Shown here: positions 10,293-54,255 of the stretch, piece after piece
Layout: each line of letters begins with the position of its first letter
Position numbering within the stretch: the stretch's first letter is position 1
Source of the DNA: Caballeronia sp. NK8
GTDB lineage: Bacteria > Pseudomonadota > Gammaproteobacteria > Burkholderiales > Burkholderiaceae
Assembly (NCBI RefSeq): GCF_018408855.1
Contig: NZ_AP024323.1
Coordinates: 992,001-1,056,000 of the forward strand
DNA length: 64,000 nt
Direction of reading: 5' to 3'
Made by a program: the position numbers and the translations under genes
Notes under the pieces: model-generated
Databases searched by the model: none
What the model was told of the DNA's origin: nothing
Seen by the model: only the letters and a program-made list of their open reading frames with translations

Positions 10293-10420
10293 CGTTGCCT
10301 CCCTCGAAGCAGTTGAGAAACTACTTTAAGTGTAGGCGGCAAATACTCGGGCGCAAGGCGTTTGAGCGAAATAATGAGCCTGGATACTTTCCCGTCGGCG
10401 CAGGCTGACGCCGCATGAAA

Positions 10421-10782: not shown

Positions 10783-11078
10783 GATTGCTGTTCGTGCTGT
10801 GTCGTTCGGCGTTGATGAAATATTAGAGAGCCACGCATAGGAAAGCTCTAATCCGCGTCTTAAATTGCCGCGACAAGAATTAGGACCGAAAAGCACGAAC
10901 GGTTGATGATCCCCATTACCGCATCACGCGTTTGTTCGAACCGTCTAGTACATTTACCGCGTCGTGACCCACACACAACACGCATGAAAAGAACTTTACT
11001 GTCGCCTTGCCAGTAGCCTGCGATGCCGGGAGAATTGAAGCAACGGCCTAAAAGCCGTCCTTCACAAACGAGAGTTCG
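10783..11078. other. Divergent intergenic region without recognised gene
   Basis: About 296 bp between the small exported-protein gene (minus) and the DMT transporter gene (plus). It must hold both promoters. I see no convincing hairpin, operator or RNA gene; the only start-related signal is a weak GAGAG before the transporter ATG at 11079. Confidence 0.5.
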
Positions 11079-12017
11079 ATGGCAACCTTAGAGGGCAAGG
11101 CGCGATACCGGATTGATACCGATAACACCGGCGCCGGTATCGCCATCATGATCCTGACGACGGCACTCTTCGCTGCCAGCGATTCCACCGTCAAGCTGAT
11201 CGGCACCGCGGTCCCTCTGCTTGCGCTCCTCTGGGTGCGCTATCTCTTCCAGATGATCGTGCTGGGCGTCTGGCAAGTCCGGCGCGGCGCGTTCGGGCTG
11301 TTTCGCACGGGCGCGATCAAGCTCCAGGTCGTGCGCGCGGTGCTCCTCCTCACCAATTCCGCCTGCACGTTCGCGGGCCTGCGGCATCTGCCGCTGCCGG
11401 TCACGACATCGCTCGCGATGCTCGCGCCGCTCATCTCCACGCTGCTCGCCGCGCTCGTGCTGAAAGACGAAGTGCCGCGCAGCAAATGGGCGATGGTCGT
11501 GCTCGGCTTCATCGGCATGTTGCTCGTCGTGCGGCCGGGCGGCAGTCAGTTCAGCTGGACCGTGATCTTTCCGATCGGCGCGGCGACGACCTTCGCGTGC
11601 TTTCAGGTCTTGTCGAGTCACCTTTCGCGTGTCGACGACGCGATCACCACCAACTTTCTCACGGCGCTCGTCGCGACGGTCGTGCTGTGCGTGCTCGTCT
11701 GGATGGATCAGGCCGAGACCTTGCCGGCGCTCGCGCAAGTGCGCGTGGGAAGCTGGCTGCTCGTCGTCTTCATGGCGACGATGGCAACCGGCGGGCAACT
11801 GCTGATGTTGCAGGCGCTGCGCCGCGCGCCGCTGTCCCTGCTGACGCCCTTTTCCTACGGTCAGCTCGCATTCGCCGCGTTCTTCAGCTGGCTGCTGTTC
11901 GGCCAGGTGCCCGACATGTGGATGGCAATCGGCATGTGCGTGATCGCGGCGAGCGGCATTGGCACCGTGCTGATGCATGGACGCAAGCCGGCGCCGTCCG
12001 TACCGACGGAAATCTGA
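11079..12017 (+). CDS. DMT superfamily (EamA) transporter
   Basis: Inner-membrane transporter of 312 residues with ten predicted hydrophobic segments in two EamA repeats (first about residues 17-145, second about 155-300). Typical features are the loop SLAMLAPLISTLLAALVLKDE at the end of repeat one and the matching LTPFSYGQLAFAAFFSWLLF in repeat two. Members export amino acids, metabolites or S-adenosylmethionine-like compounds; the substrate cannot be read from sequence. It is flanked by a divergent gap upstream and a convergent HTH gene downstream. Confidence 0.9.
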   Translation: MATLEGKARYRIDTDNTGAGIAIMILTTALFAASDSTVKLIGTAVPLLALLWVRYLFQMIVLGVWQVRRGAFGLFRTGAIKLQVVRAVLLLTNSACTFAGLRHLPLPVTTSLAMLAPLISTLLAALVLKDEVPRSKWAMVVLGFIGMLLVVRPGGSQFSWTVIFPIGAATTFACFQVLSSHLSRVDDAITTNFLTALVATVVLCVLVWMDQAETLPALAQVRVGSWLLVVFMATMATGGQLLMLQALRRAPLSLLTPFSYGQLAFAAFFSWLLFGQVPDMWMAIGMCVIAASGIGTVLMHGRKPAPSVPTEI

Positions 12018-12071
12018 CGTTCAGGGAAGCACGACAGACGGCGCGCGCCACGCGCGCCGCCGCGAACGCGT

Positions 12072-12356
12072 TCAGTTGGCGTGATGGGCGTGCTGCGCCT
12101 GGCCCGTGCAGAGCCAGTGCGGATCGATATCCAGCGCTTTCCCGATGCGGCTGAATGCGGCAAACGGCGGAACCGTGATGCCGCGCCGCCAGAATTGCAC
12201 GTCGTGCTCGCTTACGTCGAGCCAGCCAGCGGCTTTTGCGGAACTGATGTTGGCTTTCTGCAGGGCTCGGTCGAGCCGCGCGGCCATGGCGCGCCGCAAG
12301 GTGTTGTCTTCGTGACTACGCTCAAGGTGGCCCAGGGTTTGGGAATGTCGCCCCAT
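12072..12356 (-). CDS. Small helix-turn-helix (Xre-like) protein
   Basis: A 94-residue protein with a helix-turn-helix in the middle: ALQKANISSAKAAGWLDVSE is helix-turn, followed by HDVQFWRRGITVPPFAAFSR as recognition helix and support. The C-terminal IGKALDIDPHWLCTG is typical of Xre/Cro regulators. It stands alone and converges with the DMT transporter gene. The ribosome site is weak (AGAGAAA). The target is unknown. Confidence 0.7.
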   Translation of the reverse strand: MGRHSQTLGHLERSHEDNTLRRAMAARLDRALQKANISSAKAAGWLDVSEHDVQFWRRGITVPPFAAFSRIGKALDIDPHWLCTGQAQHAHHAN

Positions 12357-12821
12357 TTTCTCTAATTCTCTCGATTTATATCTATATGCCGTTCAGCGCC
12401 GGCTCATTCGCGCGAGGTGAAGCGTACGCATTTACGATGACGAGGCAGTGACAGGAACAACTCCTCACGCCTGCTCTGGAAATGCCGATCGACCCGCGCG
12501 TTGCAGTGCGAGATTGTTTCAACTGGCACATCAATGCGTCAAGTGGGTAAACAACGCATTCGAACGCTTTTGGCTTAGGTGTTTACGAGCAGAATGCCGC
12601 CACGCTTGACGGACAGGCAGCTATGCGACCGCAGGTTCACCGTCCGGTCGGACGGGATTCTTTCGAATTTCGGAATATTTCCAGAAAATGAAATGATCGT
12701 TCGGATTATGTGATGTGTGATCAAAGTATACAGTCCTCATAAGCCTGCTTATTAATTGACTATTAGCTATTATTTTTGATCAGATAGCAGCCTGGTTTAA
12801 AGTCAAGCGGGGAAAACGTAA
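12357..12821. other. AT-richer gap upstream of the phasin gene
   Basis: About 465 bp without a supported gene, between the HTH gene (minus) and the phasin promoter. The stretch from about 12660 to 12850 is clearly richer in A and T than the neighbouring genes. It contains a palindrome GTCCGGTCGGAC near 12641 and TGATCA elements near 12720 and 12777. No ORF, RNA gene or terminator could be assigned. Confidence 0.5.
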
Positions 12822-12849
12822 TTGACACTTCATCCACTTGGCTTAGAAT
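12822..12849 (+). promoter_or_regulatory. Sigma70-type promoter of the phasin gene
   Basis: A perfect -35 box TTGACA (12822-12827) and a -10 box TAGAAT (12844-12849) are separated by 16 bp. The start point would fall near 12856, giving a leader of about 70 nt before the phasin ATG at 12926. Confidence 0.75.
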
Positions 12850-12925
12850 AAGGCATTCGCTGCACTGCACAATTCAGCGTTACCTCATTGCGCTATCTAT
12901 TCGCAACTTCCCTATGGAGTCGAGC

Positions 12926-13492
12926 ATGAGCAGTCTTGCGCCGGAAAACGTAATCGCGTCACAAAAGGCCGGAGTCGACACGACCTTCGGTCTCGCCTCC
13001 CGAGCCGTGGAGGGTTTCGAGAAACTGGTCGATTTGAACGTGCGTACGGTCAGAACGACGCTCGACGAACATCAGGCGCTCATCGCCCGGTCGCTGTCCG
13101 TGCGCGATCCGCAGGAATTCTTCGCGTTTCAGAACCAGCATCTGCAAGACAGCGCGAAGCGCGTGCAGGCGTACTGGCTGGGCGTCTATGAGATCGCGGC
13201 GGGCGTGCGCGGCGGTTATCTCGAAGCGGCGCAGGATCAGATCGAGAAGTCGCAGCGCAATGTTCAGGCGTTCGTCCAGAGCCTCGCGAGCAACGCGCCC
13301 GTCGGCAGCGAAGCCGTGGTGACGGCGTGGAAGACCGCGATCGACGCCGCGACCGAATCGGCGAATTCGGCTTATGAAGCCGCCAAGCGAGCCGCGCAGC
13401 AAGTGGTCGAGGCCGCGCAGAACGACGCTAGCGTAGCGAGTCAGACGGCCGTGCGCGCCGTGTCGCCGAAAACGGCCAGCGCGAAGAAGTAA
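12926..13492 (+). CDS. Phasin family protein (polyhydroxyalkanoate granule-associated)
   Basis: Small amphipathic coiled-coil protein of 188 residues that coats polyhydroxyalkanoate granules. It shows the Burkholderiales phasin pattern: an N-terminal helical block with ASRAVEGFEKLVDLNVRTVR, the segment DPQEFFAFQNQHLQDSAKRV, a long heptad-rich helix, and an Ala/Lys-rich tail ending ASAKK. The start at 12926 has GGAG 8 nt upstream; an ATG at 12914 is less well placed. It has its own promoter and terminator, so it is probably monocistronic and well expressed. Confidence 0.9.
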   Translation: MSSLAPENVIASQKAGVDTTFGLASRAVEGFEKLVDLNVRTVRTTLDEHQALIARSLSVRDPQEFFAFQNQHLQDSAKRVQAYWLGVYEIAAGVRGGYLEAAQDQIEKSQRNVQAFVQSLASNAPVGSEAVVTAWKTAIDAATESANSAYEAAKRAAQQVVEAAQNDASVASQTAVRAVSPKTASAKK

Positions 13493-13509
13493 TCTCGCGA
13501 GCAGTCAAG

Positions 13510-13535
13510 AAAAGGCGGACGCGGTCCGCCTTTTT
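13510..13535 (+). terminator. Rho-independent terminator after phasin gene
   Basis: The hairpin AAAAGGCGGAC, loop GCG, GTCCGCCTTTTT begins 18 nt after the phasin stop codon. The T run on the plus strand and A run before it make it usable in both directions, which also suits the convergent dioxygenase gene. Confidence 0.85.
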
Positions 13536-13544
13536 CTTTTTGCA

Positions 13545-13913
13545 TCAGCCACCCAGACTCGTCAGCACGAGTTCGTGCGAACGGCCGATCCACACGGCCG
13601 AATCGCGATGATCGACGAGCGCATCGCCGGTATTCGGATGCATGAAGACGTCGAGCGCGCCGTGATTGAGCGTGAGCCACGCGAGCATCGGCGCGAGCAG
13701 GTCGCCGCCGAATCCCAACTGGAACGACCACATCGGATGCGGTCCGACCGGGCGTTCGTGAAAACGGCCGAGGCGCAACGCGCCGCTTTGCAGTTCGTCC
13801 GCGAAACGCGCTTCAATAACGAGCCGCAATTGCCACGCGGCGTCGCGGCTCACGGCATCGAAATAAACGTGCGCGTGCCAGTCGGCGATCGTGCGGGTGT
13901 GCGTGGCTTCCAT
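13545..13913 (-). CDS. DOPA 4,5-dioxygenase family protein
   Basis: A 122-residue protein of the DOPA-dioxygenase-like family, small enzymes that cleave catechol rings extradiol. Recognisable blocks are DWHAHVYFD near the N-terminus, RFHERPVGPHPMWSFQLGF in the centre and DVFMHPNTGDALVDH near the end. Together these supply the conserved histidines expected to bind iron. The ATG at 13913 is chosen; a TTG 7 codons upstream is possible. It lies 53 nt after a Tat-signal protein gene and two flavoprotein-operon genes, so a phenolic substrate is plausible. Confidence 0.85.
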   Translation of the reverse strand: MEATHTRTIADWHAHVYFDAVSRDAAWQLRLVIEARFADELQSGALRLGRFHERPVGPHPMWSFQLGFGGDLLAPMLAWLTLNHGALDVFMHPNTGDALVDHRDSAVWIGRSHELVLTSLGG

Positions 13914-13966
13914 CGTTTCTTCCGTGCGCGGCAATATCGAGATGCGTTCATTCTAGCGAAGCGCTT

Positions 13967-14329
13967 TCAGCCGTGTTCGAGCGTCCATAGCAGCGCGCCG
14001 TCGTCCCATGCGCGATGATGCTGCGCGCGCATACCGATCTCCGCGCCCAGTTGCGCGAAAACGAAGGCATCCGCGAAGCGCGTGATTCCGCCAATTCCGT
14101 CGGAACGCGCAACCGCTTCCTTCGACAATCGCTCGAACCAGAGCCAGCCCGCATCGCCGGAAAGCGCGGCGATGCGCGTGGCCCGACGCAAAACGGCGCC
14201 ACTTTGCCGCAAGTCCTGATCGACGACCCAGATGCGCGTCGAGGCCCGCATGACGATGCCGGACGACCTCGACGGCCATCCCGCTGCGCCCATCGCGATG
14301 AGGAACTCACGCCGCGTCGTGCTCATCAT
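13967..14329 (-). CDS. Tat-signal hypothetical protein
   Basis: A 120-residue protein with an N-terminal twin-arginine motif (STTRREFLIAMGAAGW), which suggests folded export to the periplasm. The rest contains no Cys and no heme or iron-sulfur motif, and I do not recognise it. The ATG at 14329 overlaps the stop of the upstream flavoprotein gene by 4 nt (ATGA). The coupling suggests it is a partner of that enzyme, although p-cresol-methylhydroxylase partners are normally c-type cytochromes and this one is not. Confidence 0.72.
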   Translation of the reverse strand: MMSTTRREFLIAMGAAGWPSRSSGIVMRASTRIWVVDQDLRQSGAVLRRATRIAALSGDAGWLWFERLSKEAVARSDGIGGITRFADAFVFAQLGAEIGMRAQHHRAWDDGALLWTLEHG

Positions 14330-15924
14330 CCGTCCCGCGCAAAAGGCTTCGACGGCCAGATGCCCTGTTTGCCCGGCGACAGAATGCCGTTCGGATCGAG
14401 CGCGCGCTTGATCGTTTCCGATAGCCGCATCGAAGCGTGATCGTTGAAATCGTATTGCGCGGCGGCGAGATCCATATACGCGAGATGCGTCCGATATTGC
14501 CCGTAGCCCGCCGCGCCCGCATCGCGGATCAGCGTTTCGATCAGCGCGCCCGCCGCGCGCGACTGTTTCGGATCGTCGCGATCGAAAATCGCCGCGAAGA
14601 TGTGATGCATCGCGCGTTCGCCCACCGTGAAACCGCCGTAATAGTCGAAGCCGGATTGCTCGGCACGCTCGCGGACCATACGCACCTGTTTGACGGCATC
14701 GCGTCCGATCGGCGGGCAGACCGGCGAGAAATCGATATGCGCGCCCGAGCCGCCACGCCAGTTCAGCAGGCTGAATGCTTCGAGACCGGGAATGCCCACT
14801 TGCGCGCGATCGCCGCCGCCCTCGGGTTCCATGACGCCCTCGCGATACGGCATCTCGAAGAGCGTCGCGCCCGCGATCGGCTTGAAGCGTGCGTGCACGA
14901 TATCGCGCCGCGCCTTCACGAGCGACTCCGGCCCGTACAGGCAGAAGCGCAGATTCCAGCGCCCGATGCCGATCCTGCGCGCCATCGCGTCGATGGCGTC
15001 GTCGGGCATGGCGCCGTCGCCGTCGTACCACTGTTTGCGCGTCGACACGCCCGCCGCCCAGCGCACCGCGCTTTCGATGACCGCGTTGCTCTGGATCGTG
15101 CCGTCGCGACGAAGCGGGCGCAGCGTATCGACGATGGCCTCCAGATCGTCCTCGCGCGCGAACGCGTAGCGGCAGATCATGTAGCCCTCGGGCGCCGGCA
15201 TGAGCCAGAGACCCAGTTTCGTGACCACGCCGAAGTTCGACTGCATGAACATGCCGTCATATGACGGCCCGAAGCCGCTTTTGAACACCTGCCAGTCGCG
15301 GCTCGACGACATCGCGCCCATGCCGGTGCGTACCACCTCGCCGTTCGCGAGCACGACTTCCATGCCGCACTGATTGGCCGCGTGGTCGCCGTAAGGCGTC
15401 GTGCCGTAGCCGCGTTCGAGCGTGTTGCCGATCACGCTGCCCCAGCCGGCCGCGGGCGGATCGAGCCAGAAACGCCGTGGCGTGCCGAGCGCGCGATGCA
15501 CATCGTAGTACGTCACGCCCGGCTCGACGAGCGCATGACCCAACGTCTCGTCGATCTCGATGATGCGGTTCATCCGCCGCAGATCGAGCACGACGCAACC
15601 GCGCATGCGCGGGGCCGCGCCGCCGTATGCGAAGTTGCGTCCCGTCGAGACGGTCCAGAGCGGCACGCGATACCGGTTCGCCACCGCCAACGCCGCGCGC
15701 ACGCCGTCGACATCGTTCGGCAGCACGACGGCGGACGGCGCATGCGCCGACGCATCGCCGGGCGCGAACGGATCGAGATACGGCTCGAGTTGCGAAGCGG
15801 TATCGTTCGGCAGCACCGCATCGCCGCCGAGCGCCGCCGCGAAAGCCGCGAGCGCCGCGCGAAACTGCGCCGCCGACATGCCCGGCGGCAACGGCGCGGC
15901 GTCGGGACCGGCAGACGCGCTCAA
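14326..15924 (-). CDS. FAD-linked oxidase of the vanillyl-alcohol oxidase / p-cresol methylhydroxylase family
   Basis: Flavoenzyme of 532 residues oxidising para-substituted phenols. The N-terminal PCMH FAD domain (STGRNFAYGGAAPRMRG, DLRRMNRIIEID, YGTTPYGDHAANQCGMEVV) matches remembered PchF and VAO closely. In the C-terminal domain GSGAHIDFSPV carries H396, aligned with the VAO His that binds FAD covalently; PchF uses a Tyr in NWRGG context and the corresponding residue here is Leu. The enzyme is therefore more oxidase-like. The TTG start at 15924 overlaps the lipoprotein stop and has GGCGGA upstream; a longer frame would lie inside that gene. Confidence 0.86.
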   Translation of the reverse strand: MSASAGPDAAPLPPGMSAAQFRAALAAFAAALGGDAVLPNDTASQLEPYLDPFAPGDASAHAPSAVVLPNDVDGVRAALAVANRYRVPLWTVSTGRNFAYGGAAPRMRGCVVLDLRRMNRIIEIDETLGHALVEPGVTYYDVHRALGTPRRFWLDPPAAGWGSVIGNTLERGYGTTPYGDHAANQCGMEVVLANGEVVRTGMGAMSSSRDWQVFKSGFGPSYDGMFMQSNFGVVTKLGLWLMPAPEGYMICRYAFAREDDLEAIVDTLRPLRRDGTIQSNAVIESAVRWAAGVSTRKQWYDGDGAMPDDAIDAMARRIGIGRWNLRFCLYGPESLVKARRDIVHARFKPIAGATLFEMPYREGVMEPEGGGDRAQVGIPGLEAFSLLNWRGGSGAHIDFSPVCPPIGRDAVKQVRMVRERAEQSGFDYYGGFTVGERAMHHIFAAIFDRDDPKQSRAAGALIETLIRDAGAAGYGQYRTHLAYMDLAAAQYDFNDHASMRLSETIKRALDPNGILSPGKQGIWPSKPFARDG

Positions 15925-16049
15925 TATCCGCCGCTGCTGCCGCTGCTGGACGTCGTGCCGGATGACGTCGAACCGCCATCGGTCTGACATCCCGCGAGCA
16001 GGCCGGCGAGGAGCGCGAGCACGACTGTTGCGATTCTGGCGAGTTTCAT
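15921..16049 (-). CDS. Small lipoprotein (42 aa)
   Basis: A 42-residue protein with a classic lipoprotein signal: MKLARIATVVLALLAGLLAGC, lipobox LAGC, followed by a Gly/Ser/Thr-rich tail (TDGGSTSSGTTSSSGSSGGY). GGAGG precedes the ATG at 16049. The mature part is only about 22 residues with no fold. It is first in the flavoprotein operon and overlaps the next gene's TTG start, so it may act mainly in translational coupling or as a small envelope anchor. Confidence 0.75.
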   Translation of the reverse strand: MKLARIATVVLALLAGLLAGCQTDGGSTSSGTTSSSGSSGGY

Positions 16050-16203
16050 GAAACGACCTCCGAAAGGTTTGAAAACCAGGCGCGGCGATTAAACCGCTTG
16101 TCCATTAAACGCGCGGCGGTACGTCGATATTCCTTCGCGAAACCGTGTGAGACAATTTCGCGCCGCGCAAAGCCTGCGCGCGAACTCTTACTCACGTCAC
16201 GCG

Positions 16204-17613
16204 ATGAAGCGCTATCAAGCCCTTGCCGACACGATGGCCGCCGAGATCCGCGCGGGCCGGCTGGCCGTCGGCACGCGCCTGCCTTCGGTGCGGCATCTGA
16301 CGACGCAATACGGCGTCGGACAATCGACGGTCTTTCGGGCGTATTACCTGCTCGAAGAGTGGGGGCTGATTCGCGCGCGCGAGCGCTCCGGCTATTACGT
16401 CGCGCCGGGCGCGACGCTGCCGCCGCAAGCGCCGCCGCCCGCCCCGCTCACGGAGCCCGCGCCCATCGACGTGAGCAGTCTCGTCTTCTCCGTGCTCGAT
16501 GCCGTCAAGCGTCCGGACATCGTGCCGCTGGGTTCGGCGTTTCCATCGCCTGCGCTCTTTCCGTTGCCGCGTCTCGCGAAGTCGCTCGCGCACGCGGCCC
16601 GCATGCTCGATCCGTGGAGCACCGTCGTCGACATGCCGCCGGGCAACGAGCAACTGCGGCGGCAGATCGCGCTGCGTTACATCGGCATGGGCATCGCGCA
16701 GCCGGTGGACGAACTCATCGTCACGAACGGCGCGATGGAAGCGCTCACGCTCTGTCTGATGGCGGTGACGAAGCCCGGCGATGTCGTCGCGATCGAATCG
16801 CCGTGCTTCTATGCGGCGTTGCAGGCGGTCGAGCATCTGGGGCTGCGCGCGGTCGAGATTCCCGTCGATCCGCGTGATGGTCTCGATCTCGACGTGCTCG
16901 CCGAGGCGCTCGACAAGCATCCGGTGCGCGCGTGCTGGTTCATGACGAACTTCCAGAATCCGACCGGCGTGACGCTGTCCGTCGAGAAAAAGCGCGCGCT
17001 GGTCGCGTTGCTGGCGAAGCACGAGGTTCCGCTCATCGAGGACGACGTCTACGGCGAACTGCATTTCGCGCAGGATCGCCCACCACCCGCGAAAGCCTTC
17101 GATACCCAAGGGCTCGTGATGCATTGCGCATCGCTGTCGAAGACGCTCGCGCCGGGTTATCGGCTCGGCTGGGTCGCGGCGGGCCGCCACGCCAGCGCGA
17201 TCCGCCGTCTCAAGCTGATGACGAGCATCTCGACCAGCATTCCGATTCAGGCGGGCATCGCGGACTATCTTCAGCACGGCGGCTTCGACAAGCATCTGCG
17301 CAAGCTGCGCGGCGCCCTGCTCGCGCAACGCGACGCGATGGAGCACGCCATCGCGCGCTGGCTGGCGACGGACGTCGCGTGCGTGCGGCCCGACGGCGGC
17401 TATTTCATGTGGCTGCAACTGGCCGGACACGTCGACGCGATGCAGTTGCATCGGCGCGCGCTCGAACACGGCATCAACGTGACGCCGGGGCCGATCTTCT
17501 CCGCCCGCCACGCTTACGGGAATCACGTGCGCATCAACTTCGGCCATCCGTGGTCGCCGCAGATCGAAAGCGCGATGAAAACGCTCGGCACGCTGTTGCG
17601 CGCGGCATCCTGA
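16204..17613 (+). CDS. MocR-type regulator (GntR winged helix fused to aminotransferase domain)
   Basis: A 469-residue regulator with an N-terminal GntR winged helix (about residues 1-72, LPSVRHLTTQYGVGQSTVFR) and a fold-type I PLP aminotransferase-like domain. PLP-site features are present: NFQNPTGVTL, EDDVYGELHF and the Schiff-base lysine K313 in CASLSKTLAPGYRLGW. MocR proteins use PLP or amino-compound adducts as effectors. It is divergent from the lipoprotein-flavoprotein operon (155 bp) and 42 nt upstream of the nuclease-helicase gene, which has its own promoter. Its likely target is itself or the divergent operon. Confidence 0.9.
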   Translation: MKRYQALADTMAAEIRAGRLAVGTRLPSVRHLTTQYGVGQSTVFRAYYLLEEWGLIRARERSGYYVAPGATLPPQAPPPAPLTEPAPIDVSSLVFSVLDAVKRPDIVPLGSAFPSPALFPLPRLAKSLAHAARMLDPWSTVVDMPPGNEQLRRQIALRYIGMGIAQPVDELIVTNGAMEALTLCLMAVTKPGDVVAIESPCFYAALQAVEHLGLRAVEIPVDPRDGLDLDVLAEALDKHPVRACWFMTNFQNPTGVTLSVEKKRALVALLAKHEVPLIEDDVYGELHFAQDRPPPAKAFDTQGLVMHCASLSKTLAPGYRLGWVAAGRHASAIRRLKLMTSISTSIPIQAGIADYLQHGGFDKHLRKLRGALLAQRDAMEHAIARWLATDVACVRPDGGYFMWLQLAGHVDAMQLHRRALEHGINVTPGPIFSARHAYGNHVRINFGHPWSPQIESAMKTLGTLLRAAS

Positions 17614-17649
17614 AACACGCTTTGGCGGCGATAAGCGCATGCTAGACTG

Positions 17650-17665
17650 CTGTACATGCATACAG
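17650..17665 (+). promoter_or_regulatory. LexA (SOS) box overlapping the start codon of the nuclease-helicase gene
   Basis: CTGTACATGCATACAG fits the CTGT-N8-ACAG consensus exactly. The helicase ATG (17656-17658) is inside it. A plausible promoter just upstream (TTTGGC near 17621, TAGACT at 17643-17648) would start transcription at or next to the ATG, so LexA would cover the start point. Confidence 0.85.
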
Positions 17666-19971
17666 TACCCGAGCCCGCCTACACGGTCGCCGTGCGCGCG
17701 CTGTGCGAGTTCACGGCGAAGCAGGGCGATCTCGATCTGCGCTTCACGCCGACGCCGAGCGCGCAGGAAGGCGTCGCGGGCCACGTGACCGTCACGGGCC
17801 GGCGGCCGGCCGGCTACCAGAAGGAAATCTCGCTGTCGGAAACCTGGGGGCCGCTGTGCGTGCGTGGCCGCGCCGACGGCTACGATCCCGCGCTCAACCG
17901 GCTCGAAGAGATCAAGACGCATCGCGGCAGGCTCGAATCGATGCCGCAGAATCATCGGCATCTGCATTGGGCGCAGGCGCGCGTCTACGGGCATCTGATG
18001 TGCCGCAAGCTCGGGCTCGACGCCATCGAGATCGCGCTCGTCTATTTCGATATCGTCGATCAGAGCGAGAGCGTGCTCGTCGAGACGCAGACGGCCAGCG
18101 CGCTCGCCGCGCATTTCGAGGCGCAGTGCGAACGCTTCATCGCGTGGGCGCGGCAGGAACTCGCGCACGCCGCCGCGCGCGACGCCGCACTCTCCGCGCT
18201 CGCGTTTCCGCACGCGGATTTCCGGCCCGGCCAGCGCGCGCTCGCGGAAGCGGTGTATCGCTCGGCGGTGTCGGGGCGCTGTCTTGCCGTGCAGGCGCCG
18301 ACTGGCATCGGCAAGACGGTCGGCACGCTCTTTCCGCTTCTCAAGGCGTGGCCGGGCCAGCGACTCGACAAGATCTTCTTTCTCACGGCGAAAAGCGCGG
18401 GACGCCAGTTGGCGCTCGATGCGCTGACGACGCTCGCCGCGACGCTCTTGCGCGTCGTCGAACTCGTCGCGCGCGACAAGGCTTGTGAATATCCGGATCG
18501 CGCGTGTCACGGCGAATCGTGTCCGCTCGCGCGCGGCTTCTACGATCGCCTCGCCGATGCGCGCGCCGCCGCGCTCGACTGCGCGCAGCTCGATCGCGCG
18601 TCGATTGCCGAGGTCGCGCGGCGGCATGAAGTCTGTCCGTACTATCTGAGCCAGGAACTGTCGCGCTGGGGCGATGTGATCGTCGGCGATTACAACTACT
18701 ACTTCGATACCAGCGCGATGCTGTTCGCGCTCGCGGAGGCGAATCGCTGGCGCGTGGCGGTGCTCGTCGACGAAGCTCACAATCTCGTCGAACGCGCGCG
18801 CGGCATGTATTCCGCGACGCTCGATCAGGCCGCCTTCAACGCGATGCGCCGTGGCGCGCCGCCGTTGCTGAAAAAGGCGCTCAGCCGTGTCGCGCGAAGC
18901 TGGAACGAGACGGCGAGCGACCAGCACGCCGCCGGCGTCGAATACGCGGCGCATCCGGAATCGCCCGCGCGGTTTCTGAACGCGCTCGGGCAAGCCGTCT
19001 CGCTGATGACCGAGACGCTCGGCGAGCTACCCGACGTTTTTACGCCCGACACCCTGCGCTTCTATTTCGATGCGCTGCATTTCACGCGCATCGCGGAGCG
19101 TTTCGGGACGCACTCGATCTTCGACATCACGCTCGCGGCTTCGGCCACGAAAAAGCCCAACGCCGTGCTGTGCCTGCGCAACGTGATTCCCGCGCCGCAT
19201 CTCGCGCCGCGTTTCGCGCGCGCGCACTGCGTCGCACTCTTTTCCGCGACGCTCACGCCCGCGCATTTCTACGCCGACACGCTCGGGCTGCCGCAGTCGA
19301 GCGTGCGTATCGATGTCGAATCGCCCTTCTCCGCCGATCAACTCGACGTGCGCGCGATCGCCGATCTCTCCACGCGCTATCGCGACCGCGAGCGCTCGGT
19401 GGATCGCATCGCGGATCTCATCGCCGCGCAGTATTTCCGCGCCGAAGGCAACTATCTGAGCTTCTTCAGCAGCTTCGACTATCTCGCGCAAGTGGCGGCG
19501 GCGCTCGCGGCGCGGCATCCGTCGATTCCATGCTGGCAGCAGTCCCGCGCGATGAGCGAGGCGGCGCAACGCGAATTTCTCGCGCGCTTCGTGCCAGACG
19601 GACGCGGCGTCGGCTTCGCGGTGCTGGGCGGCGCGTTCGGCGAAGCGATCGACTTGCCGGGCACGCGGCTCATCGGCGCGTTCGTCGCGACGCTCGGCCT
19701 GCCGCAGTTGAACCCCGTCAACCAGCAGATGAAGGCGCGCATGCACGAAGCGTTCGGCGAAGGCTACGCGTACACGTATCTCTTTCCCGGCTTGCAGAAA
19801 GTCGTGCAGGCGGCCGGTCGCGTGATTCGCGGGCCGCTCGATCGCGGCGTGCTGTTTCTGATCGACGACCGCTTCGCGCGCGCCGAGGTGCGGCGTCTGC
19901 TGCCCGCGTGGTGGCGGGTGAAGGTGCTGCGGCAACGTGACCTGAACGTTTCGGCGGATTCGACCATTTAG
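17656..19971 (+). CDS. PD-(D/E)XK nuclease fused to XPD/DinG-type iron-sulfur DNA helicase
   Basis: A 771-residue DNA-repair protein. Residues about 60-115 show RecB-family nuclease motifs: D74 (GRADGYD), E85-I-K87 and Q107-x3-Y111 (HWAQARVYGH). The helicase follows, with Walker A K220 (APTGIGKT), four cysteines placed for a 4Fe-4S cluster (C277, C284, C289, C327) and the DEAH box at residues 372-375 (VDEAHNL). The C-terminal motifs include FSATLT, FFSSFDYL and QAAGRVIRG. No ribosome site precedes the ATG, so the message may be leaderless. A LexA box overlaps the start, making it an SOS gene. Confidence 0.88.
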   Translation: MHTVPEPAYTVAVRALCEFTAKQGDLDLRFTPTPSAQEGVAGHVTVTGRRPAGYQKEISLSETWGPLCVRGRADGYDPALNRLEEIKTHRGRLESMPQNHRHLHWAQARVYGHLMCRKLGLDAIEIALVYFDIVDQSESVLVETQTASALAAHFEAQCERFIAWARQELAHAAARDAALSALAFPHADFRPGQRALAEAVYRSAVSGRCLAVQAPTGIGKTVGTLFPLLKAWPGQRLDKIFFLTAKSAGRQLALDALTTLAATLLRVVELVARDKACEYPDRACHGESCPLARGFYDRLADARAAALDCAQLDRASIAEVARRHEVCPYYLSQELSRWGDVIVGDYNYYFDTSAMLFALAEANRWRVAVLVDEAHNLVERARGMYSATLDQAAFNAMRRGAPPLLKKALSRVARSWNETASDQHAAGVEYAAHPESPARFLNALGQAVSLMTETLGELPDVFTPDTLRFYFDALHFTRIAERFGTHSIFDITLAASATKKPNAVLCLRNVIPAPHLAPRFARAHCVALFSATLTPAHFYADTLGLPQSSVRIDVESPFSADQLDVRAIADLSTRYRDRERSVDRIADLIAAQYFRAEGNYLSFFSSFDYLAQVAAALAARHPSIPCWQQSRAMSEAAQREFLARFVPDGRGVGFAVLGGAFGEAIDLPGTRLIGAFVATLGLPQLNPVNQQMKARMHEAFGEGYAYTYLFPGLQKVVQAAGRVIRGPLDRGVLFLIDDRFARAEVRRLLPAWWRVKVLRQRDLNVSADSTI

Positions 19972-20091
19972 ACCGGCGCGACGACGCCGTTAACTGGTCA
20001 AATCGCGGGCATTTGTCTTGCTGCGCTTTGGCGCCTGAGGACGCGCAGATGTCGCTTAACGGGCCGCCAGAGCCCTCTATTGGAGAACCCC

Positions 20092-20586
20092 ATGTCTATC
20101 GCTCAAACCCCGCGACCCATTGATGCGCTCGACATGCTCGAAGCCGATCACCGTGCGATCGAACAATTGTTCGATGCCTTCGAACGCGCCGACGCCAACG
20201 ATTTCGAGCGCAGGAACGCGCTCGCGCAGCGCGCGTGCGAGTTGCTGACGATTCACACGATCGTCGAGGAAGAATTGCTGTATGCCGATGCCCAGCATGC
20301 GCTCGCCGCGCACGAACGCATCGATGTGGATGAGGCCTATGTCGAGCATTTTCTCGTCAAGACGCTGATCGAACGGCTCACGAACCTGAAAGCGGGCGAA
20401 GACGGCTTCGACGCGACCTTCAAGGTGCTCAAGGAAAACACGACCCATCACATCGAGGAAGAAGAATCCACGCTCTTTCCGGAAGTGCGCAGAGCGAAGA
20501 TGGAACTCGTCGCGCTCGGCGCGAAGATGGCCGCGCGCAAGGCCGCGCTGCAGGAGCGCATCGCGGAGACCGCGATGGCGCATTGA
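20092..20586 (+). CDS. Hemerythrin HHE-domain protein
   Basis: A 164-residue four-helix-bundle protein with two HHE motifs: MLEADHRAIEQLFDAFE and HTIVEEELLYADAQH in the first half, then HFLVKTLIERL and HHIEEEESTLFPEV in the second. It is expected to bind a di-iron centre and sense or carry oxygen or nitric oxide, or buffer iron. GGAG lies 8 nt before the ATG at 20092. It stands between the SOS helicase and a 2OG-Fe(II) oxygenase gene, both plus strand. Confidence 0.9.
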   Translation: MSIAQTPRPIDALDMLEADHRAIEQLFDAFERADANDFERRNALAQRACELLTIHTIVEEELLYADAQHALAAHERIDVDEAYVEHFLVKTLIERLTNLKAGEDGFDATFKVLKENTTHHIEEEESTLFPEVRRAKMELVALGAKMAARKAALQERIAETAMAH

Positions 20587-20680
20587 CCGCCGGCGCGAAT
20601 TGCACAGCAAGACCCGGAGTGCGTGAACCGGGCGCCCGGCGCACACTGCGGGCACGCTCACGCACATCCGGAGAAACGAC

Positions 20681-21415
20681 ATGAAGGTGCTCGAACGCGC
20701 AACGGCGGCGAATATGGAAGCACGCATCGACGCGCTCGACTGGGCCGATCTCGAAGCCCAACTGGATGGCTACGGCTGCGCCACGACGCCCGCGCTCCTC
20801 ACGCCCGAAGAATGCCAGGCGCTTGCCGCCCAGTACGATCGCGACGGGATTTTTCGCAGCCGCGTCGTGATGGAGCGCCACGGCTTCGGGCGCGGCGAAT
20901 ACAAGTACTTCGCGTATCCCCTGCCCGACACGCTCGAGCGCGTGCGGCGCGCGGTCTATCCGCATCTCGCGCCGGTCGCCAATCGCTGGAATGAGGTGAT
21001 GCGTATCGAGACGCGCTATCCGCGTGAGCACGCGGCGTTCATCGAGCGCTGTCATCGCGCGGGGCAGACGCGGCCGACGCCCTTGTTGCTACGTTACGTG
21101 CCCGGCGATTTCAACTGCCTGCATCAGGATCTCTACGGCGAACACGTATTCCCGATTCAGATGGCGATCCTGCTTTCCGCGCCCGGCCGCGATTTCACCG
21201 GCGGCGAATTCGTGATGACCGAGCAGCGTCCGCGCATGCAGTCGCGCGCGGAAGTCGTGCCGCTGTCACAGGGCGATGCGGTGTTCTTCGCCGTGCATCA
21301 TCGGCCGGTGCAGGGCACGCGCGGGCCGTATCGCGTGAACATGAAGCACGGCGTGAGCCGCCTGCGCTCGGGGCGGCGGCACATGCTGGGGGTGATCTTT
21401 CACGACGCGCGGTGA
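20681..21415 (+). CDS. 2-oxoglutarate/Fe(II)-dependent oxygenase
   Basis: A 244-residue jelly-roll oxygenase. The iron-binding HxD is H148-x-D150 (CLHQDLYGEHVFP). The distal His and 2-oxoglutarate-binding Arg are expected in MKHGVSRLRSGRR near the C-terminus. The blocks LLSAPGRDFTGGEFVMTEQR and VPLSQGDAVFFAV are typical of a bacterial 2OG-FeII_Oxy family often seen near alkylation-repair genes, though none is adjacent here. The substrate is unknown. GGAGAAACGAC precedes the ATG. It converges with ribA, with 9 nt between. Confidence 0.88.
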   Translation: MKVLERATAANMEARIDALDWADLEAQLDGYGCATTPALLTPEECQALAAQYDRDGIFRSRVVMERHGFGRGEYKYFAYPLPDTLERVRRAVYPHLAPVANRWNEVMRIETRYPREHAAFIERCHRAGQTRPTPLLLRYVPGDFNCLHQDLYGEHVFPIQMAILLSAPGRDFTGGEFVMTEQRPRMQSRAEVVPLSQGDAVFFAVHHRPVQGTRGPYRVNMKHGVSRLRSGRRHMLGVIFHDAR

Positions 21416-21424
21416 GCGCGGGTC

Positions 21425-22093
21425 TTATTCGTTCTCGTCGAAGTAATGCCCGAAGCGCGCCTGCTTCGTCTTGATGTAACGCTCGTTTTCCTCGCGCATC
21501 GGAATGGCGAGCGCGACACGTTCGCACACGGGAATATCGTGCTTGAGCAGCGTGTCGAATTTCGACGGATTGTTGCTCATCAGACGCACCGACTTCACGT
21601 TCATCGAGCGCAGGATCGCGGCGGCGGAGTCGTATTCGCGCGCGTCGTCGGGCAGGCCGAGATGCAGGTTCGCATCGACGGTATCGAGTCCCTGTTCCTG
21701 CAGCGCATACGCCCGGATCTTGTTGGCAAGGCCGATGCCGCGCCCTTCATGCCCGCGCAGATACAGCAGAATGCCGCGATCCTCCGCGGCGATATAGCGC
21801 AGCGCCAGATCGAGCTGCTCGCCGCAATCGCAGCGGTAGGAGCCGAAGACATCGCCCGTCACGCATTCGGAATGCAGGCGCGTCAGCACCGAGTCGCCGT
21901 TGCTCACGTCGCCCATCACGAAAGCGATGTGCTCGACGTCCGTGTGCTTCACGCGATAAACGTAGGAATCGAAGGTGCCGTAGCGGGTCGGAATCGTGGC
22001 GGTCGCGACGAGTTCGACATCCGCGCACTCATCGCATTCGCCGAAGCGGTGTTGCGGGTTCTGCACGTCCTGCGGGGGAGAAGCGGTTTTCAT
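21425..22093 (-). CDS. ribA: GTP cyclohydrolase II
   Basis: First enzyme of riboflavin synthesis; opens GTP to 2,5-diamino-6-ribosylamino-pyrimidinone phosphate, formate and pyrophosphate. The 222-residue protein has the zinc ligands in [20 protein letters not shown], the catalytic block [15 protein letters not shown] and the GTP-binding [10 protein letters not shown]. The N-terminal 25 residues carry an extra CDEC pair ([10 protein letters not shown]). It is a single-domain RibA, not fused to RibB. No FMN riboswitch is apparent upstream. Confidence 0.93.
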
Positions 22094-22376
22094 AGATCAA
22101 TCTGCGAGTCCACGACGGCGGACGATGACTCGATGAATCACGCCCATCGCGCCAGCCCGGTCCGTCATGTTAAGGCTCATCGGGAAAGTTTGCAGATTGT
22201 CGCACGGCGCGCGCCGCTTCTCGCGCTTTCCCGTACGGACGTTCCGCTTATCGAATCCGTCAACCCCGACTCCGGAAATTCCGAATTTCATGCCATCGCC
22301 GTTGAAATGAAGATGTAAGACACCATGTCTTTCAGAGCAGCGTGTGGATGCGGGAAAACGAGAAAATATCGGGCCG
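22094..22376. other. Divergent ribA-ahpC gap, upstream part
   Basis: About 283 bp before the OxyR site. It should contain the ribA promoter. I see no ORF worth reporting and no RNA gene; the sequence near 22270 (TCCGGAAATTCCGAA) is a short imperfect palindrome of unknown meaning. Confidence 0.45.
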
Positions 22377-22413
22377 ATAGGCCATCGCTATCTCGACAAT
22401 AAAATCAATCCAC
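22377..22413 (+). promoter_or_regulatory. OxyR binding site upstream of ahpC
   Basis: The spacing fits the four-part OxyR motif: ATAG (22377-22380), 7 nt, CTAT (22388-22391), 7 nt, ATAA (22399-22402), 7 nt, CCAC (22410-22413). The first two quarters match the ATAG/CTAT consensus exactly, the third by three of four bases, the last poorly. It ends directly before the -35 region, the position of an activator. Confidence 0.75.
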
Positions 22414-22443
22414 TTCGCAAGTGTGATAGCTTTCCTGTATAGT
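22414..22443 (+). promoter_or_regulatory. ahpC promoter
   Basis: The -10 box TATAGT (22438-22443) lies 18 bp after a poor -35 box TTCGCA (22414-22419). A weak -35 next to an OxyR site is usual for activator-dependent promoters. The start point would be near 22450, and AAAGAGG lies before the ahpC ATG. Confidence 0.65.
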
Positions 22444-22484
22444 TCACGTACTTCTTCAACACCACTCCAAAGAGGAATCTGGTA

Positions 22485-23048
22485 ATGCCCATCATCAACA
22501 GTCAAGTCAAGCCGTTCAAAGCAACCGCCTACCACAATGGCGACTTCCAGACCGTCACCGATGAAAGCCTGAAGGGCAAGTGGTCGGTGTTCGTGTTCTA
22601 CCCGGCCGACTTCACGTTCGTGTGCCCGACCGAATTGGGCGACCTGGCTGACCGTTACGACGAATTCAAGAAGCTGGGCGTGGAAATCTACTCGGTGTCG
22701 ACCGACACGCACTTCACGCACAAGGCATGGCACGACACGTCGGACACGATCCAGAAGATCAAGTACCCGATGATCGCCGACCCGACGCTCGCAATCTCGC
22801 GCGCTTTCGACGTGCTGATCGAGGAAGAAGGCCTGGCGCTGCGCGGCACGTTCGTGATCAATCCGGAAGGCCAGATCAAGCTGTGCGAAATCCACGACAA
22901 CGGCATCGGCCGTGACGCCGGCGAACTGCTCCGCAAGGTTCAGGCAGCGCAATACATCGCCAAGCACCCGGGTCAAGTGTGCCCCGCCAAGTGGACGCCG
23001 GGCGCTGAAACGCTGACCCCGTCGCTCGACCTGATCGGCAAGATCTAA
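22485..23048 (+). CDS. ahpC: Alkyl hydroperoxide reductase subunit C (typical 2-Cys peroxiredoxin)
   Basis: Peroxidase that reduces hydrogen peroxide and organic hydroperoxides, recycled by AhpF. The 187-residue protein has the peroxidatic C47 (FTFVCPTE) and resolving C166 ([10 protein letters not shown]), and the GGLG-equivalent region of sensitive 2-Cys peroxiredoxins ([13 protein letters not shown]). Length matches the E. coli protein. It is the first gene of ahpC-ahpF, and the OxyR-type site upstream explains peroxide induction. Confidence 0.96.
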
Positions 23049-23070
23049 GCCTCGTCACGAGCGCTGCATC

Positions 23071-23143
23071 GAACCTGCCGCGATTCAGCGGCGGGTTCAC
23101 CCCAAAAGACGCCTTCGTCCGGCGCTGCGAGCTTCGCAGCGCC
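23071..23143 (+). other. Two intercistronic hairpins between ahpC and ahpF
   Basis: The first hairpin pairs GAACCTGCCGC with GCGGCGGGTTC (23071-23097). The second is a perfect 10-bp stem, GGCGCTGCGA with TCGCAGCGCC around a 3-nt loop (23121-23143). Neither has a T run, so they are not simple terminators. They could stabilise the ahpC part of the message or reduce ahpF expression, as expected when AhpC is needed in excess. Confidence 0.6.
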
Positions 23144-23190
23144 GCGGTGAAGCGCGTCTGCACTACCCAAGTCAAGGAACGGACATCGCC

Positions 23191-24777
23191 ATGCTCGACG
23201 CCAATCTCAAGAACCAGTTAAAAGCGTATTTGGAAAAAGTCACCCGGCCGATCGAACTCGTCGCCTTCCTCGACGACGGCGACAAGTCGCGCGAGCTGAA
23301 AAGCCTGCTCGACGAGATCGCCTCGCTGTCGCACCAGATCAGCGTCGTCGAGAAAGAGGACGCCAGCGTGCGTCGTCCGTCCTTCACCATCGGCGAGGCG
23401 GGCAAGACCGCGGGCATCCAGTTCGCCGGCATTCCGATGGGCCATGAATTCACGTCGCTCGTGCTTGCGCTGTTGCAGACGGGCGGCCATCCGATCAAGC
23501 TCGACGACGCCACCATCGAGCAGATCCGCAACCTCGACGGCGACTTCGCATTCGAGACGTATTTCTCGCTGTCGTGCCAGAACTGCCCGGAAGTGGTGCA
23601 GGCGCTGAACGTGATGGCGATCATCAATCCGCGCATCAGACACGTCGCGATCGACGGCGCGTTGTTCCAGAAGGAAGTGGAAGACCGTCAGGTGATGTCC
23701 GTGCCGATGATGTTCATCAACGGCGAGAGCTTCGGCTCGGGTCGCATGGGCGTAAAGGAAATTCTGGCGAAACTGGACACGGGCGCATCGGCGCGCGCCG
23801 CGAAGGAACTGGAAAACAAGCCGGTGTTCGACACGCTGATCGTCGGCGGCGGTCCGGCTGGCGCGGCTGCGGCGATCTATTCGGCGCGCAAGGGCATCGC
23901 GACGGGCGTCGTCGCCGAGCGCTTCGGCGGCCAGGTGCTCGACACGATGGCGATTGAAAACTTCGTCTCCGTGCAGGAAACCGAGGGACCGAAGTTCGCG
24001 ACGGCGCTGGAACAGCACGTGAAAAGCTATGAAGTCGACGTGATGGACGTGCAGCGCGCCGAGAAGCTCGTGCCGGGCCGCATCAACGAGATTCATCTGG
24101 CGAGCGGCGCGGTGCTGAAGGCGAAGACCGTGATTCTGTCGACCGGCGCGCGCTGGCGCGAAATCAACGTGCCGGGCGAGCGCGAGTATCGCGGCCGCGG
24201 CGTGGCGTACTGCCCTCACTGCGACGGCCCGCTCTTCAAGGGCAAGCGCGTCGCGGTGATCGGCGGCGGCAATTCGGGCGTGGAAGCGGCGATCGATCTC
24301 GCGGGCCTCGTCTCGGCGGTGACGCTGATCGAATTCGGCAACGAACTGCGCGCCGACGCGGTGCTGCAGAAGAAGCTGCGCAGCCTCGCGAACGTGACGA
24401 TCGTCACCGAGGCGCAGACGACCGAAGTCACCGGCGATGGCAAGAAGGTCAACGGCATCACGTACACGGACCGCGCGACGGGCGCGAGTCATCATGTCGA
24501 ACTGGAAGGCGTGTTCGTGCAGATCGGTCTCGTGCCGAACACCGAATGGCTGAAGGGCACGGTGGAATTGTCGAAGCACGGCGAGATCGTGGTCGACGCG
24601 CGCGGCGCGACGTCCTTGCCGGGCGTGTTCGCGGCGGGCGACGTGACGACGGTGCCCTACAAGCAGATCGTGATCGCGGTCGGCGAAGGCGCGAAGGCAT
24701 CGCTCTCGGCGTTCGATCATCTGATCCGGGCGTCGGTGGAAGACGAAGCAGTGGTCGAAGAAGAAGCGACGGCCTGA
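23191..24777 (+). CDS. ahpF: Alkyl hydroperoxide reductase subunit F
   Basis: NADH-dependent flavoprotein that reduces AhpC, 528 residues. The N-terminal tandem thioredoxin-like domain has C129-x2-C132 (LSCQNCPEV). The thioredoxin-reductase-like part carries the FAD motif [17 protein letters not shown], the redox pair C341-x2-C344 (YCPHCDG), the NADH motif [15 protein letters not shown] and the C-terminal FAD block [15 protein letters not shown]. It is the second gene of the ahpCF operon, followed by a strong terminator. Confidence 0.96.
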
Positions 24778-24806
24778 GCGTAGCTCGGGTGTCGTAGTGA
24801 CCGGAA

Positions 24807-24836
24807 GGCGGACGGGGCGACCCGTTCGCCTTTTTT
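24807..24836 (+). terminator. Rho-independent terminator after ahpF
   Basis: GGCGGACGGG, loop GCGA, CCCGTTCGCC followed by six T (24831-24836). The T run overlaps the last two bases of the convergent sensor-kinase gene's stop codon. Confidence 0.88.
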
Positions 24837-26064
24837 ACTGGCCTTGCGCCGCCTTCGGTTCCAGCACCATCGGGAACGTCACTTCGAACACGCTGCCGTG
24901 CCCTTTCGACGACTGGAACCGTAAGTCCCCTTCCAGCGTGCGAGACAATTCCTTGACGATGGCGAGCCCGAGCCCCACGCCGGGGATGTCGTCATCGGCG
25001 GCGCGCTCGAACTCCTCGAACACGCGTTCCTGATCCGCCGCGCCGATGCCCACGCCCGTATCGGCGACGCGTAATTTCCAGCACGCGTCGGGCGCGGCGG
25101 TAATGGCGAGGACGATCTCGCCCGAGGTCGTGTACTTGATCGCGTTCGACAGCAGATTCAGCGCCACCTGCTTCACTTTCAGCCGGCTCGACGTCACCGC
25201 GCCGAGCGCCGGATCGAAATGCCCGACGAGCTTCAATCCCTTCGCCTCGGTCGAGATGCGGCACGCCTGCATCAGTTCGTCGAAGAGTCCGACGAGATCG
25301 AATGGCTCGACGACCAGCAGTGAATCGTCGCCGAGCACTTTCGAGTATTCGACCATTTCATCGACGAGCGTCGCCATGTCGGCGACTTGCCGGTTCGCGA
25401 GACCGAGCGCCGTGTCGCGCTTCGCGGGCGAGCGCGTGGCGAGTTGCAGCGCCGTCGAGAATACATTGAGGAAATTGCGCAGATCGTGGGCGACGCGCCG
25501 CGTGATCTGCATGCGCGTTTCGTAAAGATCGCTGATGAGCTTCTGGCGCAGCGTCAGCTCGTAGTTCGCGCGCTCCAGCATGCCGGTGTATTCGTCGATC
25601 TTGCGATCGCGCTCGCCGATCGCCTCGCGGATCGATGCGAGGGTTACGAAGCTCACCACTTCGTCGGTCATGAGGCGGGCGTGCTCCTCGTCGGCGCGCG
25701 AAAAATCCTCGTGCGTGCTCGCGTACTCGCCGATTGCGAGCAGCAGCACCTGACGGAACAGATCGAGCTCGCGCACCAGTTCGTCGACACGATAGCCCTG
25801 CTGCCAGCGCCATTGCCCGTGCTGACGCGCGTCGCGCTCGATCGCGCCTTCCTGATCGCGCAGATTGCGCGATTCCAGCACGATGCAGATCTCTTCGAAA
25901 ATGCTCGGCAGATGATCCGCGAGCTGTCGATAGGTGAGTTGATCGGAATGTTCGACTTCCTGATCGCCGAACACGAGCTTCATCCATCGCTCGGTGAGCG
26001 CGGGTTGTTGCTCGCGCAGCGCGGCCACGAGACCCTTCAAGCCGCCGACTGACGTGTCGCTCAT
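24835..26064 (-). CDS. Sensor histidine kinase with RsbRD-like N-terminal domain
   Basis: Soluble kinase of 409 residues with no membrane segment. Residues about 15-160 resemble the RsbRD N-terminal sensor domain (RWMKLVFGDQE, RDARQHGQWRWQQGYRVDEL). The dimerisation helix has phosphorylatable H193 in RVAHDLRNFLN. The HATPase domain shows the N-box NLLSNAIKYTTSG, G1 DTGVGIG and G2 GVGLGLAIVKELSR. No response regulator gene is adjacent, so it is an orphan kinase that senses an internal signal. It converges with ahpF. Confidence 0.88.
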   Translation of the reverse strand: MSDTSVGGLKGLVAALREQQPALTERWMKLVFGDQEVEHSDQLTYRQLADHLPSIFEEICIVLESRNLRDQEGAIERDARQHGQWRWQQGYRVDELVRELDLFRQVLLLAIGEYASTHEDFSRADEEHARLMTDEVVSFVTLASIREAIGERDRKIDEYTGMLERANYELTLRQKLISDLYETRMQITRRVAHDLRNFLNVFSTALQLATRSPAKRDTALGLANRQVADMATLVDEMVEYSKVLGDDSLLVVEPFDLVGLFDELMQACRISTEAKGLKLVGHFDPALGAVTSSRLKVKQVALNLLSNAIKYTTSGEIVLAITAAPDACWKLRVADTGVGIGAADQERVFEEFERAADDDIPGVGLGLAIVKELSRTLEGDLRFQSSKGHGSVFEVTFPMVLEPKAAQGQ

Positions 26065-26256
26065 CTACGAAGTCCCGATTTGCTGAACGCGCCGGACCGC
26101 GGCGCGTGTGGTGACGGTGATATGCAGTCGAAAGCATTGCCCCGGTGGCCGGAGCCGCCCGCGATCGCTCCGCCAGTATAGGCGCGATGCTCGCATCAAA
26201 GTGCCATACCCGAGTTTTCCCTTGGACCTTTCCGCGACCTGGATTCAGTACTTCCT

Positions 26257-54239: not shown

Positions 54240-54255
54240 CTGTACACGCATACAG
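54240..54255 (-). promoter_or_regulatory. LexA (SOS) box of the double uvrA gene
   Basis: CTGTACACGCATACAG on the plus strand fits CTGT-N8-ACAG and differs from the box at 17650 by one base. On the minus strand a promoter TTGGCG (54263-54268), 18 bp, TACAGT (54239-54244) overlaps it, so LexA would cover the -10 box. The leader to the TTG start is about 87 nt. Confidence 0.85.

Follow-up and report, generated by a model that had tools for sequence, protein, structure and literature searches.

A nuclease-helicase gene of Caballeronia sp. NK8 with a predicted LexA operator lying over its start codon

The subject of this study is a 64,000-nucleotide (nt) stretch of the Caballeronia sp. NK8 genome (contig NZ_AP024323.1, positions 992,001 to 1,056,000), hereafter the window, and within it a gene for a 771-amino acid (aa) nuclease-helicase of the EndoDinG type, together with the short region in which its putative promoter, LexA operator and start codon meet (Table 1). 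The genome comprises 9.2 Mb in 7 contigs, and a genome search found the gene in single copy; its closest named relative is that of Caballeronia pedi (98% identity). A candidate second copy at C1:1665183 was rejected, as the match was weak (E 2.6e-4) and spanned residues 633-748 only. A GntR/aminotransferase gene on the same strand ends at 17613, 42 nt before the ATG, and an in-frame stop is found upstream of the ATG at 17632. The next in-frame start is a GTG at 17692, lying within a conserved V-A-V-R stretch, and a further in-frame GTG is present at 17785.

Table 1. Features of the nuclease-helicase locus and a second LexA box in the window
Feature	Position	Strand	Remarks
EndoDinG-type nuclease-helicase gene	17656..19971	+	771 aa; open reading frame, domain, PDB and fold matches
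Predicted extended -10 promoter element TGCTAGACT	17640..17648	+	TGC + TAGACT (17643-17648)
Putative LexA operator CTGTACATGCATACAG	17650..17665	.	sequence, strict motif, conservation
ATG start codon, inside the operator	17656..17658	+	also predicted transcript start, 7 nt past the -10 hexamer
PD-(D/E)XK nuclease domain core	17761..18198	+	residues 36-181; H43, E57, D74, E85, K87, Q107, Y111; fold model, fold matches, invariant residues
Walker A APTGIGKT	18295..18318	+	residues 214-221, includes K220; sequence and alignment
Four-cysteine iron-sulfur motif	18484..18636	+	C277, C284, C289, C327; within the DEAD_2 match
DEAH box	18769..18780	+	residues 372-375; sequence and alignment
Helicase_C_2 domain	19441..19917	+	residues 596-754; PF13307, E 3.5e-32
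Another strict LexA box of the window	54240..54255	.	before uvrA; same regulon, separate from the nuclease-helicase gene

A preliminary description of this DNA, made from its letters, had claimed an XPD/DinG-type helicase with Walker A, DEAH and four spaced cysteines, preceded by a RecB-family nuclease signature (D74, E85-x-K87 and Q107-x3-Y111) for which a PD-(D/E)XK fold was expected. The helicase was borne out by Pfam, which scored both DEAD_2 and Helicase_C_2, and by a 20-row alignment in which D74, E85, K87, Q107, Y111, K220, the DEAH box and the four cysteines were all invariant; P215 was the sole position of Walker A short of full invariance. With both domains, Walker A and DEAH present, the protein belongs to the XPD/DinG group of superfamily 2. 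The nuclease signature residues were likewise all in place, and the structure model of the N-terminal domain gave the expected fold with a predicted local distance difference test (pLDDT) score of 89.2.

The best matches in a fold search with this domain were the DinG structure 9KQH, SSO0001, Cas4, MGME1, RecE and EXO5, and a nuclease fold of the Cas4/RecE/EXO5/RecB type is thus supported by the model. EndoDinG proteins have been described as carrying a histidine in alpha-2, a glutamate at the start of beta-2, an aspartate in beta-3, and a glutamate and a lysine in beta-4, and as having a shortened (truncated) Arch domain and a motor domain 2 that lacks beta-7 (PMC11981726). In the model, H43 lies in helix 36-48, E57 in strand 55-64, D74 in strand 67-77, and E85 and K87 in strand 82-89; the elements were matched by order to the published description rather than superposed on the Bdellovibrio protein. 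These five residues were invariant in 29 rows. The nuclease fold, the placement of the H/E/D/E/K residues and the CCCC iron-sulfur motif all agree with the EndoDinG subgroup, and judged from its sequence and predicted fold the 771-aa protein is an XPD/DinG helicase fused to an N-terminal PD-(D/E)XK nuclease domain. Three of its relatives passed the Pfam cut-off for PDDEXK_1. The domain would be expected to cut DNA; endonuclease activity of the Bdellovibrio EndoDinG is mentioned as unpublished data in the review just cited.

The region in front of the gene is unusually compact. As the preliminary description had stated, the ATG lies within the CTGT-N8-ACAG box, TAGACT is present at 17643, and a ribosome site is missing before the ATG. 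The search for one gave no match of at least 3 nt to AAGGAGGTGAT. The TGC directly before TAGACT makes the hexamer part of an extended -10 element. A consensus scan, going beyond the preliminary description, found no -35/-10 pair at the locus; any promoter here would accordingly belong to the extended -10 class. The seven bases after the hexamer place the predicted +1 on the A of the ATG, and the first nine bases of such an RNA are predicted to be unpaired.

The value of the box as a LexA site depends on how the motif is defined. The loose form, CTGT-N8-ACAG, occurred 52 times in the genome versus 55 for a control read backwards, and with one mismatch allowed it gave 9 matches in the window versus 10.4 expected; lacking enrichment in both, it was rejected as evidence. 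The strict form, CTGTAYN4RTACAG, occurred 17 times versus 0 for the control, with 0.8 expected from base composition, and two of the 17 sites fall in the window. Strict boxes precede lexA, imuA, dinB, uvrA and other genes. When nine proteins encoded behind strict boxes were compared with NCBIfam, seven were above cut-off (LexA, two ImuA, DNA polymerase IV, UdgX with a TIGR03915 part, the TIGR03916 radical SAM protein and UvrA) and two (L083 and L106) matched no model above cut-off. In all, 8/17 strict sites were assigned to a gene, the nuclease-helicase included; the box at its promoter has the strict form, which places the gene in the predicted LexA regulon. The distance from box to start was 29-46 nt for the named SOS genes with fetched loci versus 6 (inside the box) for the nuclease-helicase gene.

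Some of the other strict boxes deserve mention in their own right. The uvrA gene of the window (48323-54145, minus strand) encodes 1940 aa, of which residues 4-966 match a whole UvrA while ABC matches run to about 1530, which gives it the look of a fused UvrA of double length; its box lies about 95 nt upstream of the mechanically called TTG start, and the box-to-start distance counted as above is 110 nt. Two loci (L085 and L109) have near-identical starts behind strict boxes, L109 being imuA and L085 looking like a second, possibly broken copy. The boxes at C7:318262 (L199) and C5:461021 (L108) also precede near-identical sequence, with a frame that by eye resembles ImuA/SulA.

Conservation was examined in 31 rows, consisting of the window and 30 named loci (L003-L031 and L036; mostly named Caballeronia, the rest Burkholderia). 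The LexA box was present at the nuclease-helicase gene in all 31, and the ATG was at box position 6 in 25. In the 24 distinct rows with the ATG in the box, TGCTAGACT (or TGCTAAACT in some) stood one base before the box, and positions -12 to -1 before the box had a mean conservation of 1.66 bits. Upstream of the -10 element conservation was lost (0.26-0.42 bits versus 1.66 and 1.93). The ribosome-site match in these rows was shorter than 3 nt in 14, 3 nt in nine and 4 nt in one. The remaining six of the 31 rows belong to the sordidicola clade; ATC or ATT stands there in place of the in-box ATG, and an ATG follows 15 nt later in the same frame; these genes would have a short leader without a ribosome site instead of a leaderless message. 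The codons under the operator are also constrained. Codon 3 was ACA in 25/25 rows, a codon used for only one of the 37 threonines of the nuclease-helicase gene, and codon 2 was CAT or CGT and never CAC in the 25 in-box rows; further downstream, one codon was kept at only 3/44 positions with an unchanged amino acid. By this comparison the coding sequence is bent to the putative operator.

The preliminary description did not extend to the gene's context in relatives. Outside Caballeronia, the helicase gene of named relatives was often found directly behind a gene ending in a VRR-NUC signature, and Pfam confirmed FAN1_HTH and VRR_NUC in that gene from one such locus (L070). In a family sample of 249 genomes, fan1 was found in 78 and the helicase (threshold, E at most 1e-60) in 132; one fan1 match (G188; E 7.5e-4, 98 residues) was left out of the 78. 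The two genes were adjacent on one strand, with the helicase directly behind fan1, in 74/78 and unlinked in four. No fan1 genome lacked the helicase (0/78), and 54 helicase genomes lacked fan1. Of the 28 helicase-bearing congeners in the sample, 25 had no fan1 and three had an unlinked one. When the set was widened to 58 congeners, 12 had a VRR_NUC match, a strong one in eight, and 49 showed strong helicase similarity, the gene being intact in 42 (E 0) and broken or in pieces in seven (G003, G005, G015, G019, G026, G037 and G056). Five of these seven have genomes of 3.5-5.1 Mb, which suggests decay in reduced genomes.

LexA boxes also accompany fan1. In 30/30 fan1 loci, being the best 30 of the 78 matches rather than a random draw, a strict box was present 48-83 nt before the FAN1 N-terminal motif (25/30 with a stricter anchor motif, absent in some, and 30/30 with a looser one), and an extended -10 element ended 1-6 nt before the box. 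A GTG in the fan1 frame started on the last base of the box in nine of these loci. In 41 named fan1-operon loci outside the family, an exact CTGT-N8-ACAG lay near the fan1 start in 22/41, a few of these being Burkholderiaceae loci, and in 31/41 with one mismatch allowed, such one-mismatch matches being individually weak; the anchor used for this count missed the known boxes of L037 and L053. For the Pseudomonas/Stutzerimonas loci among them, the corresponding counts were 6/17 and 14/17. In another genus, where the helicase also stands alone and fan1 gave no match, a box was present just upstream in 14/14 fetched regions. At the fan1 gene of two loci in the sordidicola clade (L110 and L115), the LexA box is CTGTATATGCATACAG, which holds an ATG that shares its reading frame with the fan1 ATG further on; fan1 of this clade may show the same superposition of operator and start.

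In Caballeronia the helicase gene stands alone at its own predicted SOS promoter. A tree was built from hand-picked rows (39 of 80 named loci plus 11 of the 12 family loci, L159 having yielded no readable row), and the nine lone Caballeronia rows formed one clade (100/100) that was sister to the operon helicases of Burkholderiaceae. The start regions of fan1 and of the lone helicase are alike in operator layout, and it is an attractive but weak idea that the Caballeronia promoter is an old fan1 promoter left behind after deletion of fan1. In the sordidicola clade, the fan1 and lone-helicase starts agreed outside the box at 5-9/14 positions before it and 4-12/18 after it. The lone helicase adjoins hemerythrin, oxygenase and GTP cyclohydrolase genes, none of which was found beside the operon helicases (the Paraburkholderia flanks compared spanned 1.5-3 kb), and one congener (G030) has the gene twice, once in an operon and once alone. 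Because the likeness of the start regions is weak, the neighbours differ and G030 has both copies, several origins are possible: the lone helicase may have arisen by fission, by duplication with loss, or by promoter gain. As for the neighbours themselves, the gene at 20681-21415 (plus strand) encodes an Oxygenase-NA protein, a family that according to Pfam acts on damaged DNA, and is separated from the helicase by the hemerythrin gene; most Caballeronia loci have neighbours of the hemerythrin, oxygenase and GTP cyclohydrolase II types following the helicase.

The reading that best accounts for these observations, with a probability of roughly 0.68, is an SOS-induced nuclease-helicase with LexA over both transcript start and start codon and a leaderless message. 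The gene product would be a repair enzyme combining a RecB/Cas4-like nuclease domain with a 5'-3' XPD/DinG iron-sulfur helicase. RNA polymerase would use the extended -10 element and begin transcription at or beside the A of the ATG, where LexA would be bound in undamaged cells; upon DNA damage, cleavage of LexA would open the promoter, and ribosomes would start directly on the leaderless message. Since the ATG has no ribosome site, little protein is expected from RNA reading through from the upstream gene, and a single 16-bp site would thereby gate the gene twice. The enzyme probably acts like its FAN1-adjacent relatives, on blocked forks or crosslinks, where it would open and trim the DNA. 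The three proposals of the preliminary description that concern regulation and function are all supported, provisionally, by these data: LexA control by the strict box shared with lexA, imuA, dinB and uvrA and kept throughout the Caballeronia group; the leaderless mRNA by the fixed and conserved spacing of -10 element, operator and start codon without a ribosome site; and the nuclease part of the damage-induced enzyme by the predicted fold of its N-terminal domain.

Several observations weigh against this reading. No -35 element was found. Pfam scored no nuclease domain in the 771-aa protein itself, and 9KQH has an alanine opposite D74 in the alignment. A genome search found no fan1, the supposed partner, in Caballeronia sp. 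NK8. The strict superposition is not universal even within the genus, as the sordidicola clade departs from it. Finally, no ribosome-site match longer than 3 nt was found for lexA, dinB, imuA or the radical-SAM gene, whose starts were called mechanically; the special feature of the nuclease-helicase gene is the position of its start codon, not the missing ribosome site.

The strongest alternative keeps the SOS control and the enzyme and has the message carry a leader, either from a start a few to some tens of nucleotides upstream or by read-through from the GntR/aminotransferase gene, with the ATG or a later GTG being used. The close upstream gene on the same strand, the two in-frame GTG codons and the later start of the sordidicola clade all speak for it. 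However, the upstream gene does not adjoin the helicase in many congeners, and yet the block of -10 element and box is kept; the sequence upstream of the -10 element is unconserved; and the 17692 GTG belongs to the conserved V-A-V-R stretch and lacks a ribosome site. We regard a leadered message as unlikely, though well ahead of the remaining alternatives. A part for the helicase in anti-plasmid or anti-phage defence, like that of the type IV CRISPR DinG helicase, is suggested by a match of residues 183-755 to the PADLOC model typeIV_DinG (PDLC01439; E 8.3e-117), but appears very improbable, as the linkage is to fan1, no direct repeat of at least 22 nt was found within 10000-27000, and the seven scanned neighbour proteins belong to metabolic, redox or repair families and include no cas family (the search for cas/csf genes did not extend genome-wide). 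That the palindrome is accidental or unused, and the gene not under LexA control, would fit the unenriched loose motif but is hardly credible given the strict motif counts, the box in every Caballeronia-group row, and the boxes at the second lone-helicase genus and at the 30 fan1 loci.

A broader scheme was also considered, which we hold tentatively and would put somewhat below even odds: FAN1 and EndoDinG might be a bacterial pair for crosslink repair, widespread and under LexA control, in which FAN1 unhooks and the nuclease-helicase opens and trims, like FAN1 and the XPD-family FANCJ in the human Fanconi pathway; and in Caballeronia the pair would have been split, leaving a lone helicase under an SOS promoter whose operator falls on the same spot as transcript start and start codon, with the effect that RNA from read-through goes untranslated. 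That fan1 starts at a LexA box and is directly followed by the helicase gene suggests an SOS role for bacterial FAN1 in partnership with EndoDinG.

The enzyme type itself is already known. A full-length relative by both sequence and fold is the Finegoldia magna DinG bound to single-stranded DNA and adenylyl imidodiphosphate (ADPNP) (PDB 9KQH), the best PDB match (residues 11-754, E 3.6e-103); it differs in the alanine already noted at D74, whether natural or engineered. Its host is a Gram-positive organism. The founding members, DinG and YoaA of E. coli, are not known to have an N-terminal nuclease domain, and the NCBIfam models for both scored far below cut-off on the 771-aa protein. They are XPD-family helicases induced in the SOS response (PMC11981726), two features shared with the Caballeronia protein, whose induction is predicted here. 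The EndoDinG subgroup (Cheng 2025, PMC11981726) shares the N-terminal PD-(D/E)XK domain and its H, E, D, E and K residues, the four-cysteine iron-sulfur motif and the XPD/DinG motor. Control by an operator on the start codon is a feature of the Caballeronia gene that the accessible text of that account does not contain, and FAN1, VRR and Burkholderia are likewise unmentioned there.

SOS control of the helicase family is partly known already. In 2012, putative LexA sites were predicted before Helicase c2 genes of beta-Proteobacteria, including Burkholderiaceae (PMC3323433); these genes are probably of the same family as the 771-aa protein, and the words "leaderless" and "start codon" do not occur in the accessible part of that paper. 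Nothing on fan1 and DinG in one operon, or on fan1 as a LexA target, turned up in the open-licence PMC library, and we do not claim that none is in print. What appears to be new is that the operator is predicted to share its place with both transcript start and start codon, together with the LexA-fan1-EndoDinG arrangement. The locus would be a compact natural case of a repressor lying over both transcript start and translation start, and a useful test of leaderless escape from read-through leakage.

Bacterial FAN1, the gene neighbour of the EndoDinG family, is a VRR-NUC nuclease and in Pfam terms unrelated to the nuclease domain of the 771-aa protein. The FAN1 of P. aeruginosa, PA1865, is a crosslink-unhooking nuclease induced by UV-C and ciprofloxacin, and a 2026 UV-C transcriptome reported both PA1865 and PA1866 as induced and not known in the LexA, Prt or Alp regulons, as far as the available text goes (PMC12796719). 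Because exact boxes precede fan1 in some of the Pseudomonas/Stutzerimonas loci, our comparison suggests that direct LexA control of fan1 explains the UV induction of PA1865; if the FAN1-EndoDinG SOS pairing is true, the response of PA1865 to both agents could be accounted for simply through LexA.
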